Positions 16,403-30,785 of a DNA stretch of 64,000 bases are shown here, piece by piece; the stretch's first letter is position 1, and each line of letters opens with the position of its first letter. Under the pieces are notes generated by a model. That model worked only from the letters and a program-made list of their open reading frames with translations, had not been told where the DNA came from and did no database searches. The DNA comes from Acidobacteriaceae bacterium (GTDB lineage Bacteria; Acidobacteriota; Terriglobia; Terriglobales; Acidobacteriaceae). A program made the translations under genes and the position numbers. The DNA lies in contig PMYL01000012.1 in the NCBI GenBank assembly GCA_003170825.1, positions 20,694 to 84,693 of the forward strand, in the 5' to 3' direction.

Positions 16403-16910
16403 CTCAACTTGCCGGGCCTGGGTGGGCGTCGCGGGGCGGGACAGGAAAGCCCGAAAAGACGCGGTGGCGGATCAGTTTCCGAGTCGCCGGCCAACCGGGC
16501 GTTGGCTGTTAAACGCCGAATTGGACTCAACATCTCGGTGAGCGCAATGCCCTGTTTGCGTCAAGTGAGACTCAGATTCCGGATTGCCCGTGATCCACGG
16601 GCGCTCAAATCTGCCAGAAGGAATAGGCCTCAACTCAGATAAATACCCAAGCAGGCAGCGGGCTTCGGCCACAACGCTCATTTCGGCCGTAACCGATCAC
16701 TGGTAAGAGTGACGTGCATCACTGCGGACCACTGTTTGCCGAGATGTAGACTAATTCGGGTTTTTGAGGGGGGAAACTACCTGTGGGAAGCAGGAGGGAA
16801 GGCTTCGTGAGGGCGAGAACAAGGCTGAGACTTCCGGTTGCAGCGGGCGGCGGAGGCGAAGGAATTGCCGTGCATGGAAGGCGCGGTCGCGCGCGCGGAG
16901 GCAATGGGAT
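16403..16910. other. Region after the IS remnant, upstream of the CoA-transferase operon
   Basis: About 500 bases without a supportable gene. The frame of the CoA-transferase stays open back to 16764 but that extension has no family match. A Crp-like site lies at 16709-16722. Confidence 0.5.
16709..16722. promoter_or_regulatory. Candidate Crp/Fnr-type operator GTGA-N6-TCAC
   Basis: GTGACGTGCATCAC matches the core half-sites of Crp-type operators exactly (GTGA, six bases, TCAC). It lies about 190 bases before the first gene of the 2-oxoacid oxidoreductase operon. A Crp/Fnr regulator gene ends at base 324, but a link is only a guess. Confidence 0.4.
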
Positions 16911-18236
16911 ATGAATTGGCGCGAAGAGTACAAGAAAAAGTGCATGGATGCAGCGCAGGCGCTGGAGGCGGTGCGCTCCGGCTCGCGCGTATGGATCCAG
17001 TCGGGGTGCGGCACGCCTTCGCCGCTGGTGGACGCGCTGGTGGCGCGGGCTCCCGAGGTGCGCGATGTGGAGATCGTTCACATGATGACGCTGGGGAGCG
17101 CGGACTATACTAAGCCGGAGTACGAAGGGCATTTTCGTCATCGCGGATTGTTTCTGGGAGCGAACGTGCGCGAAGCGGTGGCCGCCGGACGCGCCGACTA
17201 CACGCCGATCTTCCTGAGCGAGATTGAAGGCCTGTTTGTGAGCGGCGCTCTGCCGCTGGATGTGGTGCTGATGCAGGTTTCGCCGCCGGATGCGCACGGA
17301 TTCGTGAGCCTGGGAACGACGGTGGACTGCACGCTGACCGCGGCGCGCTGCGCCGGGGCGGTGATTGCCGAAGTGAATGAGCGGATGCCGCGCACGCATG
17401 GAGACACGTCCATCCATGTGAGCCGGATTTCCGCGATTGTGGAGACATCGCGGCCGCTGCTGGAACTCTGCGCGGAGCCTCCCTCGGAACTGCACCTCCG
17501 CGTGGCGCGCAATGTGGCCTCGCTGATTCCGGATGGAGCCACGCTGCAGACGGGGATTGGCGGGATTTCGGATGCCGTGCTGACGTGCCTGGAAGACAAA
17601 CGGGACCTGGGAATCCATACCGAAATGTGCTCGGACGGCGTGATCGAGCTGATGGAATCGGGCGTCGTGAATGGCGAGCGCAAGTCGCTGCATCGGGGCA
17701 AGGCAGTGGTTACGTTTGTGCTCGGAACGCGGCGGCTGTTCGATTTCATCCATGAGAACGCGAGCTTCGAGTTCCGGCCGATTTGCTACGCTTGCGATCC
17801 GTTTGTGGTGGCGCAGAACGACAGAATGGTGGCCATCAACTCGGCGCTGCAGGTGGACCTGACGGGGCAGGTGTGCGCCGACTCGCTGGGGACCAAGCCT
17901 TACAGCGGGTTTGGCGGGCAACTGGATTTCATTCGCGGAGCGGCCCGCTCGAAGGGCGGCGTGCCGATCATTGCGTTGCCGTCGACGGCGCTGGGCGGCG
18001 GTGTGTCGCGGATTGTGCCGGTGCTGGAGCCGGGCGCGGGCGTGGTGACGTCGCGCGCGGATGTGCATTATGTGGTGACCGAACACGGAATCGCGTACCT
18101 GCATGGGAAGACGCTGCGCGAACGCGCCGAGGCGTTGATTGCGATTGCCGATCCCCGGTTTCAGGGGGAGCTGGAGGATTTCGCGGTGCGCTCGCACTAC
18201 CTGGAGCGCAAAGCGGCAACGGCCGTGTATGCATGA
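16911..18236 (+). CDS. Acetyl-CoA hydrolase/CoA-transferase family protein
   Basis: A 441-residue class I CoA-transferase related to 4-hydroxybutyrate and butyryl-CoA:acetate CoA-transferases. The catalytic glutamate is Glu238 in [11 protein letters not shown], and the C-terminal half carries [18 protein letters not shown], which binds CoA. It moves CoA between acyl-CoA and a free acid. The ATG at 16911 follows GGAGGCAATGGGAT. It is the first of six plus-strand genes that overlap or nearly overlap, followed by a ferredoxin-like subunit 31 bases later. In this setting it could exchange CoA between branched acyl-CoA and acetate, either releasing or activating branched-chain acids (inference). 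Confidence 0.9.
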
Positions 18237-18267
18237 GGGGTGGCCACACGCCGGAGAGGAGAGCGGG

Positions 18268-18570
18268 ATGAGGGATGCGGAGAAGCGGGACCGAGGCTTG
18301 CTGCGGGTGGATGTTGACGAGTGCAAGGGCTGCGGGCTGTGTGTGGAAGCGTGTCCGCCGAAGGTGATCGGCATGAGCGAGCGGTTGAATCACTACGGTT
18401 ATCGCACGGCAACCTATGCGGGCGCGGGCTGCACGGGGTGCGGAATCTGCTTTATGGTGTGTCCCGAGCCGGGGGCGATTACGGTTTTGAGAATCGTGCA
18501 TCGCAACGCCGATGAAGGACACGGCGTCGAACCAGCCATTGTGGGAGCGAGCGAATGCGCAAGCAACTGA
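18268..18570 (+). CDS. 2-oxoacid:ferredoxin oxidoreductase, ferredoxin-like delta subunit
   Basis: A 100-residue 2x[4Fe-4S] ferredoxin. The two cluster motifs are [13 protein letters not shown] and [15 protein letters not shown]. It begins [10 protein letters not shown] at ATG 18268 after GGAGAGGAGAGCGGG; longer in-frame starts are not conserved. The C-terminal 25 residues overlap the start of the alpha-subunit gene by 16 bases, implying translational coupling. In KOR/VOR-type complexes this subunit relays electrons from the thiamine site to soluble ferredoxin. Confidence 0.92.
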
Positions 18571-19649
18571 TGAAGGGAAACGAAGCGATTGTGAGGAGCG
18601 CGATCCTCTCCGGATGCCGCGCGTTCTATGGGTATCCCATTACGCCGGCCAGCGAGATCACCGAGACGGCGGCGCTCTATATGCCGCGGGCCGGCGGAGT
18701 GTTCTTGCAGGCCGAGAGCGAGGTCGCGGCCATCAACATGCTCTACGGCGCTGCGTCGGCGGGTGTGCGGGCGATGACGTCGTCGAGCGGACCGGGGATC
18801 AGCCTGATGCAGGAAGGCATCAGCTACATGGCGGGCGCGGAGCTGCCCTGCGTGATCGCGGACATCACACGCGGCGGGCCGGGATTGGGGAACATTGCCG
18901 CCGAGCAGGGCGACTATCACCAGGTGGTGAAGGGCGGCGGCCACGGAAACTATCGGACCATCGTGCTGGCGCCGCATTCGGTGCAGGAGATGGCGGACTT
19001 GACGGCGCTGGCCTTCGAGCTGGCAGACCGCTATCGCAACCCGGTGGTGTTGCTGGCCGATGGATTCATCGGGCAGATGATGGAGCCGGTCGAGTTCCCG
19101 CAGACGGCCATCGCGCCGCGGCAGCCCGAGTATGCCGTGACGGGAACGGAGGAGACGCGCGGCAATCTGGTTACCTCGCTGCATCTCGACATCGATGATC
19201 TGGAGGCGCATCAGGGCCATCTGGAAGCGAAGTATCGCCGCGCCGAGAAGTGCGAGGTGCGCGCCGAAGAGTGGCGCACGGACGATGCGGAGATTGTGCT
19301 CACCGGTTATGGAATTATGGGCCGGATTCTGAAGGCCGTGGCGGCGGAGGCGCGCGCCGGCGGGCTCAAGGTCGGTGTGCTGCGCCCGATCACTCTGTAC
19401 CCATTTCCGAAATTGCATTTCAAGCGGCTGGCCGAGAGAGCGCGCGTCTTCGTGGTGGTTGAAATGAGCAACGGCCAAATGCTGGAAGACGTTCGGCTGG
19501 CGCTCAACGGCGTCCGGCCTGTGGAGTTCCTGAGCCGCGTGGGCGGCAATGTGCCGTCGCACGAAGAGGTGCTCGGATTTGTGCGCGAGCAGGCGCGGCG
19601 AACCCTGCCGGCCAGGGAGCCGGAAGAGGAGCGAATGGCAAATGTCTAG
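18555..19649 (+). CDS. 2-oxoacid:ferredoxin oxidoreductase, alpha subunit (VorB/KorA-like)
   Basis: A 364-residue alpha subunit starting [20 protein letters not shown]. The hallmark [12 protein letters not shown] occurs near residue 26, followed by [16 protein letters not shown] and the [12 protein letters not shown] motif, all characteristic of domain I of 2-oxoacid oxidoreductases. It binds the oxoacid substrate together with the thiamine-binding beta subunit. A 2-oxoisovalerate (VOR) preference is inferred from the branched-chain aminotransferase in the same operon; 2-oxoglutarate is an alternative that sequence alone does not exclude. Confidence 0.93.
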
Positions 19650-21117
19650 CGAGATGGCTTCTGAATACGCGGTGTCGCACGGCAAGGCGAAGGCGTTCTA
19701 CGAGCGCTATGAGCGCAAGGAAGAGCTGCAGCATCAGACGCACTTTTGCCCAGGCTGCGGGCACGGCCAGGTGCACAAGATGCTGGCCAAGGCCATCGAT
19801 GAACTGGGCATCCAGAACAGGACGATTCTGGTCGGCCCGGTAGGCTGCGGGGTGTTTACCTACAACTACTTCGACGTGGGCAATATATCGGCCGCGCATG
19901 GGCGGGCGCCGGCGGTAGCCACGGGGGTCAAGCGGAGCAGGCCGGAGAGCATCGTGATCGGCTACCAGGGCGATGGGGATTTGGCGGCTATCGGATCGGC
20001 GGAGATTCTGCATGCGGCCAATCGTGGCGAGAATATCACGGTGATCTTCGTCAACAACGCCATCTACAGCATGACGGGAGGACAGTCGGCGCCGACAACG
20101 CTGCTGGGGCAGAAGACTACGACGACCCCGGACGGACGGCACACGGCCACCGAAGGGTATCCGCTGCACGTGAGCGAATTGCTGGCCACGCTGGAGGCTC
20201 CGGTCTACATCGAGCGCGTGGGCCTGGGAGACAACAAGCAGATTGCGCAGGCAACGCGCGCGGTACGGCGTACCGTGGAAAACCAGGTGCGCGGGCTGGG
20301 CTTCTCGATGGTGGAGGTGCTGTCGCCGTGCCCGACGATCTTCAAGATGACTCCGGTGGAGGCGCAGCGCTGGGTGCGCGATGTGATGGAGAAGACCTTT
20401 CCGCTGGGGGTGTTCCGCGATCGCACCAAGGATGCGCAACCACGGCAATTGCCTGAGGCGGGGCCGGCGCTCGAAGAGATTCCGCGGATTCTTGGCGTTG
20501 ACATCGAGGGTTTGCCTGAAGGCAACGCGCACGCCATGGAACATGCGGCAGAAGAGTTGGACCTTCGCGTGCGGGTGGCGGGCTTTGGCGGGCAGGGAGT
20601 CTTGTTGCTGGGTGAAGTGCTGGCGGAGGCAGGACTGGACGCCGGGCTGGAGGTGTCGTGGCTGCCGTCCTACGGGCCGGAGATCCGGTCGGGCACTTCA
20701 AACTGCCATGTGCGTCTGGCGCGGCAGCCGATCGATTCGCCGCTGGTGACGCAGCCTACCGTGCTGGTGGCGATGAATGAGCCATCGCTCAGGAAGTTCC
20801 ATTCGAGCGTGCGTCCGGGTGGATGGATTCTTTACAACGGGGAGACTTTTCCGTCCGATTGCGGGCGGGAAGATGTGCATGTGCTGGCGCATTCATTCAC
20901 GCGCGTGGCCGATGAGCTGGGCGATGCGCGCGCGGGCAACATGGTGATGCTGGGCGCGCTGCTGGAGATCACGGCGGTGTTGCCTGAGGCAAGCATCGAC
21001 GCTGCGCTGCGGCGGCTGGTCAAGAGTCCGAAATGGGTGGCGCTGGACGAGCGCGCGCTGGCGCGCGGGCGAGAGTTGTACAGAGAATCGCTGCAAGAGG
21101 TGGGCCATGAAAGCTGA
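19642..21117 (+). CDS. 2-oxoacid:ferredoxin oxidoreductase, fused beta and gamma subunits
   Basis: A 491-residue fusion. Residues about 30-270 are the thiamine-diphosphate beta subunit: FCPGCGHG at 35-42, VGPVGCG, and GDGD at 110-113 with the Mg-binding [11 protein letters not shown]. Residues about 305-491 are the gamma subunit, starting [20 protein letters not shown] (GFGGQGV at 314-320) and [13 protein letters not shown]. Beta and gamma are usually separate genes. The ATG at 19642 overlaps the alpha gene by eight bases, with GAGGAG upstream. The complex oxidises a 2-oxoacid to acyl-CoA and CO2 with reduction of ferredoxin, or runs in reverse. Confidence 0.93.
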
Positions 21118-22069
21118 AGCCGATCCGAACCTGATTGTGTATTTCGGAGGGCAGTATATGCCGCTCGGCGAGGCGCGCGTGGGGATCCTGACCCATGCCC
21201 TGCATTACGGGACGGGAGTGTTTGAGGGGATTCGCGCGCACTGGGATGAGGCCCAACAGGAGCTGTTTGTGCTGCGCCCCCTGGAGCACTATGAGCGCTG
21301 GAAGCAGAACTGCGGCATTCTGCGGATTGTCGTTCCGCCGTCGGCGGAGGAGTTGTGCGAGATCACTCTGGAATTGATGCGGAGGAATGCCTTTCGGACC
21401 GATGTGTATGTCCGGCCGCTGGCTTATAAGAGCGCGGAGCGAGTCGGGGTAAGCACCGACGATCAGGATGCCTTTGCGGTGATCGCGCTGCCCTTTGGCG
21501 ATTACCTGCACGCCGACAAGGGACTGCATGCGGGCGTGAGCTCATGGCGGCGGATCGAGGACAATGCGATTCCGGCGCGGGCCAAGATTTGCGGAGCATA
21601 CGTGAACAGCGCGCTGGCCAGCGACGAGGCGCGGCATTGCGGATTCGACGAGGCAATTCTGCTGAACGAGAGCGGTCATGTTGCCGAGGGCGCCACGTGC
21701 AACATCTTCATGGCGCGCAAGGGGAAGCTGATCACGCCTGCGGTGACGGAGAACGCGCTGGAGGGAATCACGCGCGACTCGGTGATGGAACTTGCGCAGC
21801 GGGAACTCGGCCTGCAGGTTGTGGAACGGGCGATTGACCGCAGCGAATTGTACGTATGCGACGAGTTGTTCTTCACTGGGACAGCGGTGGGCATTGCGCC
21901 GGTGGTGCGCGTCGATCATCGGCCGGTGAAAGATGGGGCGATCGGCGCTATTACGCGCGGGGTGCAACAGTTGTACTTCGATGCGGCGCGGGGACACATG
22001 CAGACTTACTTGAAGTGGCTGTTGCCGGTCTACCGATCGCGAAACACACGAGAGCAGGACGCGATTTAG
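21107..22069 (+). CDS. ilvE: Branched-chain amino acid aminotransferase
   Basis: A 320-residue fold-type IV PLP aminotransferase. Landmarks are LHYGTGVFEGIRA (near 32-44), the Schiff-base Lys160 in RAKICGAYVNSALA, the E-loop FDEAILLNESGHVAEGATCN and TGTAVGIAPV near the C-terminus. It interconverts Val, Leu and Ile with their 2-oxoacids using glutamate/2-oxoglutarate. The start overlaps the oxidoreductase fusion by 11 bases, so it is translated from the same message. That links it to the oxidoreductase as supplier (catabolic) or consumer (synthetic) of branched 2-oxoacids. Confidence 0.94.
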   Translation: MKAEADPNLIVYFGGQYMPLGEARVGILTHALHYGTGVFEGIRAHWDEAQQELFVLRPLEHYERWKQNCGILRIVVPPSAEELCEITLELMRRNAFRTDVYVRPLAYKSAERVGVSTDDQDAFAVIALPFGDYLHADKGLHAGVSSWRRIEDNAIPARAKICGAYVNSALASDEARHCGFDEAILLNESGHVAEGATCNIFMARKGKLITPAVTENALEGITRDSVMELAQRELGLQVVERAIDRSELYVCDELFFTGTAVGIAPVVRVDHRPVKDGAIGAITRGVQQLYFDAARGHMQTYLKWLLPVYRSRNTREQDAI

Positions 22070-22149
22070 CCCACGGAGATGAATGTGGGTTGAGCGGATG
22101 ACGATGTGCAATGCGCGCGGTGGGCTGGTTCGGCAAAGGAGGAAAGACG

Positions 22150-23409
22150 ATGCTCACGACAAAACTTGCAGATAACGCCTATGACGTTGCGCTGGAGAAT
22201 TTCGATGCGGCAGCGGACGCATTGCAGCTCGACAACGATACGCGGGAGATGATCAAGTATCCCGAACGCGTGCTGACGGTGACAGTGCCGGTGCGCTTGG
22301 ACGACGGGCATATTCACCGCTTTGAGGGCTACCGCGTGCAACACAGCATGGTGCGCGGGCCCGCCAAGGGCGGCATCCGCTACCACCCGCAGGTAACGCT
22401 GGATGAAGTGAAGGCGCTGGCCACATGGATGACATGGAAGTGCGCGGTGGTGAATATTCCGTTTGGCGGCGCCAAGGGCGGAATTACGTGCGATCCGAAG
22501 CGCATGTCTCCAGGCGAACTGCAGCGCATGACGCGGCGCTACACGAGCGCGATTCTTCCCTTGATTGGGCCGGAGCAAGACATACCCGCGCCGGACGTGT
22601 ACACGAATCCGCAAACCATGGCGTGGATTATGGACACCTATAGCATGACCAAGGGGTATCCTATTCCCGGCGTGGTGACAGGAAAGCCGATCAGCCTGGG
22701 CGGATCGCTGGGGCGCAACGAAGCAACCGGCCGCGGCGTGTTCTACACCATCCAGAGCGCGTGCGAGCACCTGCGGCGGCCGTTGAAGGGCGCCACAATA
22801 GCGGTACAGGGCTTTGGGAACGCCGGTTCGATTGCGGCGCAACTGCTGCATGAGGCGGGAGCGAAAGTCATCGCGGTGAGCGATTCGACCGGCTGCGTTT
22901 ACAACCGGAACGGATTGAATATTCCGGAGCTGATTCTTCTGAAGGCCCTCAGCGGGCATGTGGAAGGATTTCCGGAAAGCGAGGCAATCAGTCCAGCCGA
23001 GTTGCTGGCCTTGAAGTGCGACATCCTGGTGCCCGCGGCGCTGGAGAACGCGATCCACGCGGAGAATGCATCCGCGGTGCGTGCGACGATGATTGCCGAA
23101 GCAGCGAACGGACCTCTGACCCCGGCGGCAGACAGGATTCTGGAAAGCAAGGGAGTATTCGTGATTCCGGATATCCTGTGCAATGCCGGCGGAGTGACGG
23201 TCTCGTACTTCGAGTGGGTGCAGGATGAGCAGCACTTGTTCTGGGAGGCGCAGGATGTCTACAACCGCCTGGAACACGTGATGAAGACTGCTTTCCGGGA
23301 TGTGCTGAAGATCCATCTGGAAAAGAAGGTTCCGATGCGCATTGCCGCGAACATGCTCGGCATTGGGCGCGTGGCTGAGGCTGTGCAGCTCCGGGGCATC
23401 TATCCATAG
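22150..23409 (+). CDS. Glu/Leu/Phe/Val dehydrogenase (glutamate dehydrogenase)
   Basis: A 419-residue amino acid dehydrogenase. RGPAKGGIRYHP (69-80) and WKCAVVNIPFGGAKGGI contain the substrate and catalytic lysines (K97, K109); GFGNAGSIAAQLLHEAGAKV is the dinucleotide-binding fold. Length and motifs fit hexameric glutamate dehydrogenases. ATG 22150 has a near-perfect AGGAGG nine bases upstream. As last gene of the operon it would regenerate 2-oxoglutarate from glutamate formed by IlvE, releasing ammonium, or supply glutamate in the opposite direction. A direct role as branched-chain amino acid dehydrogenase is less likely but not excluded by eye. Confidence 0.92.
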   Translation: MLTTKLADNAYDVALENFDAAADALQLDNDTREMIKYPERVLTVTVPVRLDDGHIHRFEGYRVQHSMVRGPAKGGIRYHPQVTLDEVKALATWMTWKCAVVNIPFGGAKGGITCDPKRMSPGELQRMTRRYTSAILPLIGPEQDIPAPDVYTNPQTMAWIMDTYSMTKGYPIPGVVTGKPISLGGSLGRNEATGRGVFYTIQSACEHLRRPLKGATIAVQGFGNAGSIAAQLLHEAGAKVIAVSDSTGCVYNRNGLNIPELILLKALSGHVEGFPESEAISPAELLALKCDILVPAALENAIHAENASAVRATMIAEAANGPLTPAADRILESKGVFVIPDILCNAGGVTVSYFEWVQDEQHLFWEAQDVYNRLEHVMKTAFRDVLKIHLEKKVPMRIAANMLGIGRVAEAVQLRGIYP

Positions 23410-23785: not shown

Positions 23786-25228
23786 ATGGACGTTCTAAAA
23801 CAGCTTTTCGAGCAGCATTACCGGTTGCCGGCCGAAGACGTGCGACCGCTTCAGGGGCAACTCGGCGGCTCGGGGCGCGCCATCGTCCGGCTAGCCGGCG
23901 GGAATTTGAGCGCCATCGGCATTCTGTATCCCATACGGGAGGAGAATGTCGCTTTTCTTGAGTTCTCCAGGCATTTTCGCCGCCACGGGCTGGCGGTGCC
24001 GGAGATTTATGCGGAGGATTTGAGTCAGGGCGCCTACCTTGAAGAAGACCTGGGCGACACGACACTCTTCGAATTTCTCGGCGGAAACCGTGCCGGCGAG
24101 GTCATCGCTCCGCAGGCGATTGAAGCGTATCGCAAAGTGGTGGCCGTGTTGCCGCGTTTTCAGGTGGAGGCAGGCCGCGATCTGAATTACAAGGTCTGCT
24201 ATCCGCGCGGCCGCTTCGATCGCCAGTCCATCGCCTGGGACCTGAACTATTTCAAGTATTATTTTCTGCGGCTGGCCGGCGTACCCTTCAACGAACAGGC
24301 GCTGGAGCATGATTTCACCCGCTTGACGAAGTTTCTGCTGGGCGCCAACCATGATTATTTTCTCTATCGGGATTTCCAATCGCGCAATGTCATGCTGCGC
24401 GACGGGCAGCCGTTCTTTCTGGACTACCAGGGCGGCCGCAAAGGCGCGCTGCAATACGACATCGCGTCTCTCCTCTACGATGGCAAGGCCGATCTGCCGC
24501 CGAAGTTGCGCCAGGAGTTGCTCGACTACTATCTCGACTGCCTTGGGAGTTTCATCGACTTCAAGCGCGAAGCGTTCATGGAGCACTATTACGCGTACGT
24601 TTACGTGCGCATCCTGCAGGCCCTGGGAGCCTATGGTTTCAGAGGGTTTTACGAGCGCAAGGCGCATTTTCTGCAGAGCGTGCCGTACGCGCTGAAGAAT
24701 CTGCGCTGGCTGGCGCAAGCCGTCAAGCTGCCTATCGCCCTGCCGGCGCTGATGGACGCCCTCCAGGCCATGTCGGCCTCGGAGAAACTGCAAGGTCTGG
24801 CTTCTTCCGCAGAGGGGTTGACCGTGCGGATTTTCAGTTTCAGCTTCCACCGGCCAATGCCCACCGATGAGGCCGGGCACGGCGGCGGATTTGTCTTCGA
24901 TGCGCGGAGCCTGCCGAATCCTGGGCGGGAAGAACAATTCAAGACGTTGACTGGCAAGGACGCGACGGTAATCGAGTATTTGAATCGCGAGGCAAGCGTG
25001 CACCAGTATCTTGCCAACGTTCTGTCGCTGGTGGATGCGAGCGTGAGCGAATACCGGCGGCGGGGCTTCAAGAACCTCATGGTGTCGTTCGGCTGCACCG
25101 GCGGCCAGCACCGCTCGGTGTATCTGGCGGAGCAACTGGCGAAGCATCTGCGCGGCACGAGCGGGGTGGAAGTGGCCGTCCGGCATATCGAGCTGGAAAA
25201 AACCGATCCGGAAAAGATGGACAAATGA
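23786..25228 (+). CDS. Amino-sugar kinase (AmgK-like APH fold) fused to RapZ C-terminal domain
   Basis: A 480-residue two-domain protein. Residues 1-330 are an aminoglycoside-phosphotransferase-like kinase close in layout to AmgK: the catalytic loop is YRDFQSRN (194-201) and the metal-binding site is LDYQGGRKG (212-220). AmgK phosphorylates the anomeric OH of MurNAc/GlcNAc in wall recycling. Residues 345-472 match the C-terminal domain of RapZ: VRIFSFSFHRPMPT, FVFDARSLPNPG, LTGKDATV and the signature GCTGGQHRS (436-444). RapZ's N-terminal P-loop domain is absent. In E. coli that C-terminal domain binds glucosamine-6-phosphate and the sRNA GlmZ. The stop overlaps the next start by four bases (ATGA), tying it to a MurU-like enzyme. 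Confidence 0.88.
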   Translation: MDVLKQLFEQHYRLPAEDVRPLQGQLGGSGRAIVRLAGGNLSAIGILYPIREENVAFLEFSRHFRRHGLAVPEIYAEDLSQGAYLEEDLGDTTLFEFLGGNRAGEVIAPQAIEAYRKVVAVLPRFQVEAGRDLNYKVCYPRGRFDRQSIAWDLNYFKYYFLRLAGVPFNEQALEHDFTRLTKFLLGANHDYFLYRDFQSRNVMLRDGQPFFLDYQGGRKGALQYDIASLLYDGKADLPPKLRQELLDYYLDCLGSFIDFKREAFMEHYYAYVYVRILQALGAYGFRGFYERKAHFLQSVPYALKNLRWLAQAVKLPIALPALMDALQAMSASEKLQGLASSAEGLTVRIFSFSFHRPMPTDEAGHGGGFVFDARSLPNPGREEQFKTLTGKDATVIEYLNREASVHQYLANVLSLVDASVSEYRRRGFKNLMVSFGCTGGQHRSVYLAEQLAKHLRGTSGVEVAVRHIELEKTDPEKMDK

Positions 25229-25992
25229 AGGCGATGATTCTGGCCGCTGGCCTCGGCACGCGTCTTCGGCCGCTCACTAACGACCGGCCGAAGGCGCTGG
25301 TGGAGGTTGCCGGGCGCACGCTGCTGGAGATCGCGCTCTGCCGCTTGCGCGCCTTTGGCGTGCGCGAGGTGATTGTCAACGCGCATCATTACGCAGAGAT
25401 GATTGTCGATTACTTGAAGGCCAACGATAACTTCGACATGCGGATTGATGTCTCTCGCGAGGAGGTGCTGCTGGACACGGGCGGCGGCTTGAAGAAGGCC
25501 GCGCATTTCTTTCTTGATTCCAGCGGGAGCTTGCAAGAGCCATTTATTTTGCACAACGTCGATGTCATCAGCATGATCGATCTGGGGCGTATGATGCGGT
25601 TTCACACGGAACAGGACGCGCTGGCCACGCTGGCTGTTCAAGACCGGGAGAGTTCACGCTATCTGCTCTTCGACGAGAAGGGCCAACTCTGCGGCCGTCG
25701 CACCGGACGCGCCGCGAAGGCAGAACTTGAACCGGCTGAATTAGTGCGGAGTGCCGCAGAGACGCATGCGCTGGCCTTTTGCGGCATCCACGTCCTCTCT
25801 CCCCAAATCTTCGCGAAGATGAGAGACGAAGGCGCTTTTTCCATCATCGACACTTATATGCATCTCGCCGCCCAGGGAGAAAAGATCGTCGCCTTTCGCG
25901 CGGATGAATGTTCTTGGCGCGATCTCGGCCGGCCGGAGAGCATCCTGCAAGCCGCCCAGGACATGGGCAGCGGAAAGTACTCCGAAAGTTGA
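25225..25992 (+). CDS. MurU-like sugar-1-phosphate nucleotidyltransferase
   Basis: A 255-residue NTP transferase. It starts MKAMILAAGLGTRLRPLTND, the nucleotide-binding loop with the catalytic GxGTRLRPLT pattern, followed by PKALVEVAGRTLLE and VIVNAHHYAEMI. The short length without a left-handed helix domain matches MurU/RmlA-like enzymes. With the overlapping kinase gene it forms the expected two-step salvage: sugar to sugar-1-phosphate to UDP- or NDP-sugar, as AmgK-MurU do for MurNAc in Pseudomonas, bypassing fosfomycin-sensitive MurA. The actual sugar and nucleotide are inferred from context. Confidence 0.88.
   Translation: MKAMILAAGLGTRLRPLTNDRPKALVEVAGRTLLEIALCRLRAFGVREVIVNAHHYAEMIVDYLKANDNFDMRIDVSREEVLLDTGGGLKKAAHFFLDSSGSLQEPFILHNVDVISMIDLGRMMRFHTEQDALATLAVQDRESSRYLLFDEKGQLCGRRTGRAAKAELEPAELVRSAAETHALAFCGIHVLSPQIFAKMRDEGAFSIIDTYMHLAAQGEKIVAFRADECSWRDLGRPESILQAAQDMGSGKYSES

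Positions 25993-28682: not shown

Positions 28683-30785
<2,103 letters not shown>

Follow-up and report, generated by a model that had tools for sequence, protein, structure and literature searches.

In Pseudomonas, AmgK, an APH-type kinase, is paired with MurU, a minimal nucleotidyltransferase. RapZ of Escherichia coli, like YvcJ of Bacillus subtilis, combines a P-loop domain with a C-terminal domain, and passages of two published accounts describe how a pocket in RapZ holds sulphate or malonate through H190, T248, G249, H252 and R253, with C247 near (PMC5737377, PMC9841335). Here, we describe a locus in which parts of both systems meet. It lies in a stretch of 64,000 nucleotides from an Acidobacteriaceae bacterium (contig PMYL01000012.1; phylum Acidobacteriota), hereafter the window, and consists of a gene that fuses an AmgK-like kinase to the C-terminal domain of RapZ (RapZ_C), followed by a MurU-like gene. 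This pair is an AmgK-MurU variant that carries a diverged RapZ_C. We propose that it forms a two-gene operon for amino-sugar salvage, in which RapZ_C would bind a hexosamine phosphate and most likely adjust the kinase to that pool, a proposal in which our confidence is about evenly balanced.

The fusion gene is an uninterrupted open reading frame (ORF; 23786-25228, + strand, as are all features within it) that encodes a protein of 480 amino acids (aa). Its first part contains an APH-type kinase domain (23927-24535; Pfam envelope residues 48-250, E 2.6e-13), with a kinase fold that spans approximately residues 1-340, and its last part matches RapZ_C (24821-25195, residues 346-470; PF22740, E 6.8e-34, 117 bits with the cut-off at 27). 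No Pfam match to the P-loop domain of RapZ was found in the 480 aa, and the kinase occupies its place. An earlier interpretation of this DNA (the sequence-only reading), which saw RapZ_C attached to an AmgK-like kinase in the absence of the P-loop half, is thus borne out. A canonical RapZ with its P-loop domain is encoded by a separate gene elsewhere in the window's genome. The kinase contains a catalytic loop, YRDFQSRN (24365-24388, residues 194-201), and a metal-binding motif, LDYQGGR (24419-24439, residues 212-218), roles that we assign on the assumption that these correspond to the APH motifs. Asp196, Asn201 and Asp213 within them are invariant in all 80 aligned fusions.

An AlphaFold2 model of the 480-aa protein, based on 80 aligned sequences, has a mean pLDDT of 90.2. 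Its kinase half (residues 1-341) matches 3csv with Z 28.0 and a root-mean-square deviation (rmsd) of 3.0 over 308 residues, and scores lower against N-acetylhexosamine 1-kinase (Z 19.6, rmsd 3.8, 281 residues) and glucosamine kinase (Z 19.4, rmsd 3.6, 284 residues), with choline kinases at a similar level. The RapZ_C half superposes on 5o5o, a structure of E. coli RapZ, with Z 20.3 and an rmsd of 1.1 across 123 residues. Folded alone (mean pLDDT 89.5), the domain again matches RapZ (Z 19.8, rmsd 1.7, 125 residues), and structural matches below RapZ reach at most Z 6.3, among them a weak one to phosphofructokinase (Z about 6). Against the two AmgK models of NCBIfam the kinase half scores 49.5 and 44.7 bits, where the curated cut-offs are 500 and 550.

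Many relatives of Bacteroides from gut and mouth carry the fusion. Full-length homologues occur in plasmid-collection records from Phocaeicola, Bacteroides, Parabacteroides and Prevotella (38-43% identity over 97-98%); both annotated records are labelled 'RNase adapter RapZ' (WP_237923178.1, WP_005858754.1), and a nucleotidyltransferase comes next. Named genomes were also scanned by kinase patterns, and the best 80 of 508 loci are from Bacteroidota by title, except for one from an 'uncultured bacterium' (L090); they include Tannerella forsythia ATCC 43037. Together with four plasmid-record loci this gave 84 loci for a count of gene order. The next gene after the fusion encodes a transferase of the MurU-like family in 79 of them, and the two genes overlap by 4 bases in 29 loci, overlap otherwise in 8 and lie within 30 bases in 34. 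One of the five exceptions (L127) is on a contig that ends 37 bases past the fusion.

We further assigned 296 Bacteroidota genomes to classes by reading their ORFs. Kinase and RapZ_C are fused in 27 and encoded by separate ORFs in 9, one genome has the kinase only, 63 have no kinase match beyond a weak one and 196 lack any. In seven of the nine split genomes (G621, G609, G554, G625, G439, G356, G375), genes for the kinase, for a stand-alone RapZ_C (about 135 aa) and for the transferase follow one another, although the split in G375 is a single in-frame stop between kinase and RapZ_C and may be a sequence error. As RapZ_C is fused to the AmgK-like kinase in some genomes and is its neighbour in others, the two are tied by a Rosetta-stone pattern. 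The N-terminal domain of RapZ (PF03668) was absent from all eight fusion-bearing Bacteroidota genomes searched for it. In two Bacteroidota genomes, stand-alone RapZ_C genes with glycine at the position of E. coli H190 (L176, 3935-4336, - strand; L178, 3583-3993, - strand) have other neighbours and do not lie beside the kinase.

In the window's own phylum the distribution is patchy. Among 41 relatives, read from the match list, both domains were matched in 23 of 25 genomes of the same genus (its own included), with G007 and G023 in two pieces. Outside the genus, one genome from another family of the class (G040) matches over both domains, and no kinase-RapZ_C fusion was found in the 14 genomes of family f2 or in G039. 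Across the phylum 297 genomes were sampled, and 6 of the 31 from the window's family carry the fusion (G000, G211, G113, G124, G161 and, in two pieces, G297). In the other 266, none of the matches listed covers the two domains within one open frame (best E-value 7.3e-36); kinase and RapZ match at separate places, and in a few genomes, such as G145, G267 and G105, the matches extend beyond the kinase only across stop codons. The sequence-only reading had regarded confinement to one genome as fatal, and the fusion instead recurs in two phyla. Because the two-domain frame recurs across so many genomes, it is real and neither a chance product nor an assembly artefact.

A transferase lies downstream of the fusion in all 18 further Acidobacteriota genomes, about 2 kb off in one (L210). 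A transferase also lies near 21 of the 24 stand-alone kinases of the phylum, so the pairing of kinase and transferase is older than RapZ_C or independent of it. In a kinase phylogeny of 94 rows, made by a quick method with long branches flagged and without the weak stand-alone Bacteroidota kinases, the 18 Acidobacteriota fusions form one group (Shimodaira-Hasegawa-like approximate likelihood ratio test, SH-aLRT, 100). This group nests in a set (98) that otherwise contains only Bacteroidota kinases, and the 24 stand-alone Acidobacteriota kinases stand opposite (98). The RapZ_C tree, 81 rows with few columns, separates 63 fused or stand-alone domains from 18 canonical RapZ (99). Both trees fit one origin of the RapZ_C module and its transfer between the phyla, perhaps out of Bacteroidota, a direction suggested by the patchiness.

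The partner in the window is a sugar-1-phosphate nucleotidyltransferase gene (25225-25992, + strand, 255 aa) that begins within the stop codon of the fusion, which gives the 4-bp overlap noted by the sequence-only reading. MurU is the top of 42 NCBIfam models for it, and the best solved match is 4y7t (E 6.8e-21), which we take to be MurU of Pseudomonas putida. As its score of 129 bits falls under the curated cut-off of 250, the transferase is classed by sequence as a distant relative of MurU. The same model is the best in all four partners scanned (those of the window, T. forsythia, a split operon and a kinase-transferase operon without RapZ_C), with mannose-1-phosphate guanylyltransferases among the next best matches.

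An indication of the substrate comes from T. forsythia. According to passages of a published account, this bacterium lacks glmS, glmU, murA and murB, depends on external N-acetylmuramic acid (MurNAc) and is a MurNAc auxotroph (PMC5790795). The MurA model found no match in its genome (G337) and found one in all 19 other fusion-bearing genomes (11 of 11 and 8 of 8, the latter with four Tannerella metagenome-assembled genomes). The AmgK model NF045698 matches nothing but the fusion in 10 of 10 genomes, T. forsythia included. In T. forsythia that match is weak (E 5.1e-4), the fusion scores 66.5 bits against the other AmgK model, and it is followed by a transferase whose best model is MurU (141 bits). 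In passages of their work, authors studying T. forsythia assume an AmgK/MurU route there (PMC7670621). Because a MurNAc-salvaging bacterium without MurA carries this gene pair and has no NF045698 match besides the fusion, the comparison points to a pair that converts MurNAc or N-acetylglucosamine (GlcNAc) to a uridine diphosphate (UDP)-sugar. The pair could instead serve another nucleotide diphosphate-sugar, such as a capsule or lipopolysaccharide sugar. All family scores under their curated cut-offs and the guanylyltransferases among the next best matches would suit this, but MurU leads in each partner scanned, the AmgK models are the best on the kinase side and T. forsythia, as described in the passages cited, needs a route from MurNAc to a UDP-sugar (PMC5790795). 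We therefore consider a substrate of that kind unlikely.

What RapZ_C contributes was approached through an alignment of 147 sequences: 18 canonical RapZ (17 from Acidobacteriota and that of E. coli), 18 Acidobacteriota fusions, 79 Bacteroidota fusions from the scan and 25 from the genome sample, and 7 stand-alone domains. The 79, all scan loci except L105 with its interrupted frame, make up, with the window's own fusion, the 80 aligned fusions mentioned above; they were gathered by kinase patterns and are unselected for the phosphate loop; a smaller alignment (A3) used 55 of them. Canonical, stand-alone and Bacteroidota-sample rows were picked by a pattern that contains the loop, and Acidobacteriota fusions by NPGR and HRS. 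This picking lost no examined locus among the canonical (17 of 17, plus E. coli), stand-alone (7 of 7) and Acidobacteriota fusion (18 of 18) rows, and it took 25 of 28 Bacteroidota-sample rows, the remaining three having the loop in a separate ORF.

Positions 247-250 and 252-254 (E. coli numbering) are invariant in all 147 sequences, giving the loop C-T-G-G-x-H-R-S, which reads CTGGQHRS in the window (25094-25117, residues 437-444, equivalent to C247-S254). The pocket residues T248, G249, H252 and R253, with C247 near, are thus kept throughout. D182 (Asp372 in the window), R184, N188 and P189 are also invariant across the aligned copies. H190, by contrast with the 14 of 18 canonical copies that have histidine, is glycine in every one of the 129 fused or stand-alone copies; the residue after it is arginine or lysine in 128 of 129, where all 18 canonical copies have an aromatic residue; in the window, these are Gly380 and Arg381 of NPGR (24917-24928, residues 378-381). 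Ahead of the FVFD strand, all 104 of the fused or stand-alone rows compared have a five-residue insert of the GNGGG type (GHGGG in the window, 24875-24889, residues 364-368, as placed by alignment of fused, stand-alone and canonical RapZ_C), which is found in none of the 17 canonical Acidobacteriota RapZ nor in that of E. coli. Fused and stand-alone copies further replace R238 by phenylalanine (127 of 129) or tryptophan (2 of 129) and K251 by glutamine (121 of 129) or arginine (8 of 129), never having lysine there, and R196 is mostly basic. K170 is lysine in 76 of 79 Bacteroidota fusions and histidine in 17 of 18 Acidobacteriota fusions; in the window it is not lysine.

Judged by these residues, RapZ_C has retained its phosphate loop but differs on the specificity side and in some of the RNA contacts, and so resembles a sugar-phosphate module whose specificity has shifted. 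The sequence-only reading had called it a module that binds glucosamine 6-phosphate (GlcN6P). That claim is partly supported: the phosphate loop is kept, but H190, needed in E. coli, is replaced by the glycine of NPGR, and GlcN6P therefore cannot be assumed as the ligand. This weakens the idea of a GlcN6P sensor exactly like E. coli RapZ, which we set aside. The other role offered by the sequence-only reading, an RNA-binding regulator moonlighting from the kinase, fares worse. R184 and the mostly basic position 196 would suit it, as would K170 in Bacteroidota, and the C-terminal domain of E. coli RapZ alone is reported, in passages of one paper, to bind GlmY (PMC7073468). Yet the same paper, in those passages, places the RNA-binding tail with GlmY/GlmZ in Enterobacteriaceae, and passages of another state that GlmZ is no longer processed when E. 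coli RapZ carries H190A (PMC9841335). Positions 190, 238 and 251 have changed as given above, K170 is nearly always histidine in the window's phylum, and Rfam at gathering thresholds found only one tRNA in the window. An RNA-binding role is thus very improbable.

C-x5-R-[ST] is the loop signature of cysteine-dependent phosphatases, and RapZ_C has C-x5-R-S in every copy examined, along with the invariant Asp372. Carried over to the kinase fusion, this would make RapZ_C a catalytic domain that removes the C6 phosphate of MurNAc 6-phosphate (MurNAc-6P) or another hexosamine 6-phosphate and passes the free sugar to the anomeric kinase, a one-protein equivalent of MupP plus AmgK of Pseudomonas. In the passages available of Khan and Gorke (2020), the RapZ pocket is said to resemble the loop of cysteine-dependent tyrosine phosphatases, and GlcN6P hydrolysis is suggested (PMC7199280). 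In those of Islam (2022), C247A and C247S are both inactive, a catalytic -SH is suggested, and the crystal of the C-terminal domain with GlcN6P has density of a likely transformed product (PMC9841335). A stand-alone RapZ_C within the same gene row would also fit an enzyme. However, E. coli C247S also lost RNA binding, and the cysteine may be structural. The fold search returned RapZ and then, weakly, phosphofructokinase, with no phosphatase among the matches listed, which excludes nothing.

Known enzymes of MurNAc-6P metabolism do not track the fusion either. AnmK, a source of MurNAc-6P, is present in three of four Acidobacteriota genomes and in none of the eight Bacteroidota tested, and MurQ exceeds its cut-off in four of four and five of eight, respectively, yet all 79 aligned scan fusions keep the loop; MupP was not searched for. 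The window's genome carries both AnmK and MurQ. We therefore rejected MurNAc-6P phosphatase activity as a required role of RapZ_C and keep it only as a rather unlikely rival. A broader form of it, unlikely in our judgement, would make the RapZ_C fold an ancient C-x5-R-S hexosamine-phosphate phosphatase. In Bacteroidota and some Acidobacteriota, its subfamily with Gly190 and a basic residue 191 would have joined an anomeric kinase, as subunit or fusion, in a 6-phosphate-to-1-phosphate converter that feeds the MurU-like enzyme, and E. coli RapZ would be a relative repurposed for RNA. Separately, the MurQ match in the window's genome adjoins a MurA match (G000:C23:52080-55019).

RapZ_C might also do no more than dimerise the kinase, or act as a scaffold for it or for the kinase-transferase pair. 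The C-terminal domain of E. coli RapZ dimerises by itself, as passages of two papers state (PMC5737377, PMC7073468), and the kinase and transferase genes overlap or adjoin, but a scaffold would not need an invariant phosphate loop or D182, R184, N188 and P189. This makes a purely structural role quite unlikely.

We favour gating of the kinase by RapZ_C, and rank it first because RapZ_C is dispensable in some kinase-transferase pairs and does not track the known MurNAc-6P enzymes. In this salvage model, the two genes would be transcribed as one operon. The kinase half would make the 1-phosphate of MurNAc and/or GlcNAc, from which the neighbouring transferase would form the UDP-sugar. The kinase would have acquired a RapZ_C of the distinct subfamily marked by glycine for His190, a basic residue 191 and the GNGGG-type insert. 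The C-T-G-G-x-H-R-S loop of this domain would hold a hexosamine phosphate, and the domain would most likely tune the kinase to the hexosamine-phosphate pool, in cis when fused and through protein contact when encoded by a separate neighbouring gene.

Several observations weigh against the salvage model. The kinase and transferase score far under the curated AmgK and MurU cut-offs, and with H190 absent the ligand may be something other than GlcN6P. RapZ_C is not obligatory for the pair: its loop was not found in the loci of the 24 stand-alone Acidobacteriota kinases, and in G353, the Bacteroidota genome with the kinase only, kinase and transferase overlap with no RapZ_C match between them. RapZ_C lies away from the kinase in two of the nine split genomes (far off on the same contig in G615, on another contig in G524), and 4 of the 84 loci (L046, L111, L112, L114) have no MurU-like transferase downstream although the contig continues. 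T. forsythia is a single natural experiment; passages of one account describe other sugar kinases in it (PMC10465942), and it could use an unrelated kinase.

Upstream of the fusion, the window contains in a row (16764-23409, + strand) a coenzyme A (CoA)-transferase-like gene, a ferredoxin, POR alpha, a fusion of POR beta and gamma, a class-IV aminotransferase and a glutamate dehydrogenase, which looks like a cluster for a branched-chain 2-oxoacid:ferredoxin oxidoreductase. A few kb away, a 700-aa radical S-adenosylmethionine (SAM) protein (28683-30785, - strand) has as its best solved relative the tetraether (glycerol dialkyl glycerol tetraether, GDGT/macrocyclic archaeol) synthase 7tol (E 2.8e-59) and is possibly an enzyme for bacterial membrane-spanning lipids. 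The glutamate dehydrogenase gene lies directly upstream of the fusion, as it does in six Parabacteroides relatives (L045, L054, L055, L056, L070, L078) among the 84 loci. We rejected it as a conserved neighbour, since it was seen in none of the 18 other Acidobacteriota loci, some with flanks of only about 1.5 kb or shorter; its position is probably a coincidence.

No description of a kinase with RapZ_C was found in the literature searched, part of it through listings and passages. The pair resembles AmgK-MurU of Pseudomonas in placing an APH-type kinase beside a minimal nucleotidyltransferase, with AmgK and MurU as the best-scoring named families, and the kinase shares with AmgK the APH fold, the catalytic Asp and Asn and the metal-binding Asp. 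It differs in carrying RapZ_C, in a catalytic loop that begins with Tyr (YRDFQSRN) and in scores far under the cut-offs. With RapZ of E. coli and YvcJ it shares the fold of the C-terminal domain, the C-T-G-G-x-H-R-S loop, D182, R184 and N188-P189, whereas the P-loop domain is missing, H190 has become Gly, the aromatic residue 191 Arg or Lys and R238 Phe or Trp, and the GNGGG-type insert is added. Cysteine-dependent (tyrosine) phosphatases share the C-x5-R-[ST] loop with RapZ_C, the fold of which matches RapZ and, weakly, phosphofructokinase. The Bacteroidota proteins labelled 'RNase adapter RapZ' (about 42-43% identical over 97%) have the same architecture and gene order in another phylum; the label describes only their C-terminal third and is probably a mis-annotation, naming a job that the fusion probably does not do. 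The locus sets the C-terminal domain of RapZ apart from RNA adaptation; fusion and gene order, in two phyla, link the domain to a single salvage kinase. The two-domain enzyme makes it testable what the RapZ pocket binds and whether its cysteine does chemistry, and the gene pair is proposed as the way in which T. forsythia, without MurA, reaches UDP-MurNAc by an AmgK-MurU type of route.

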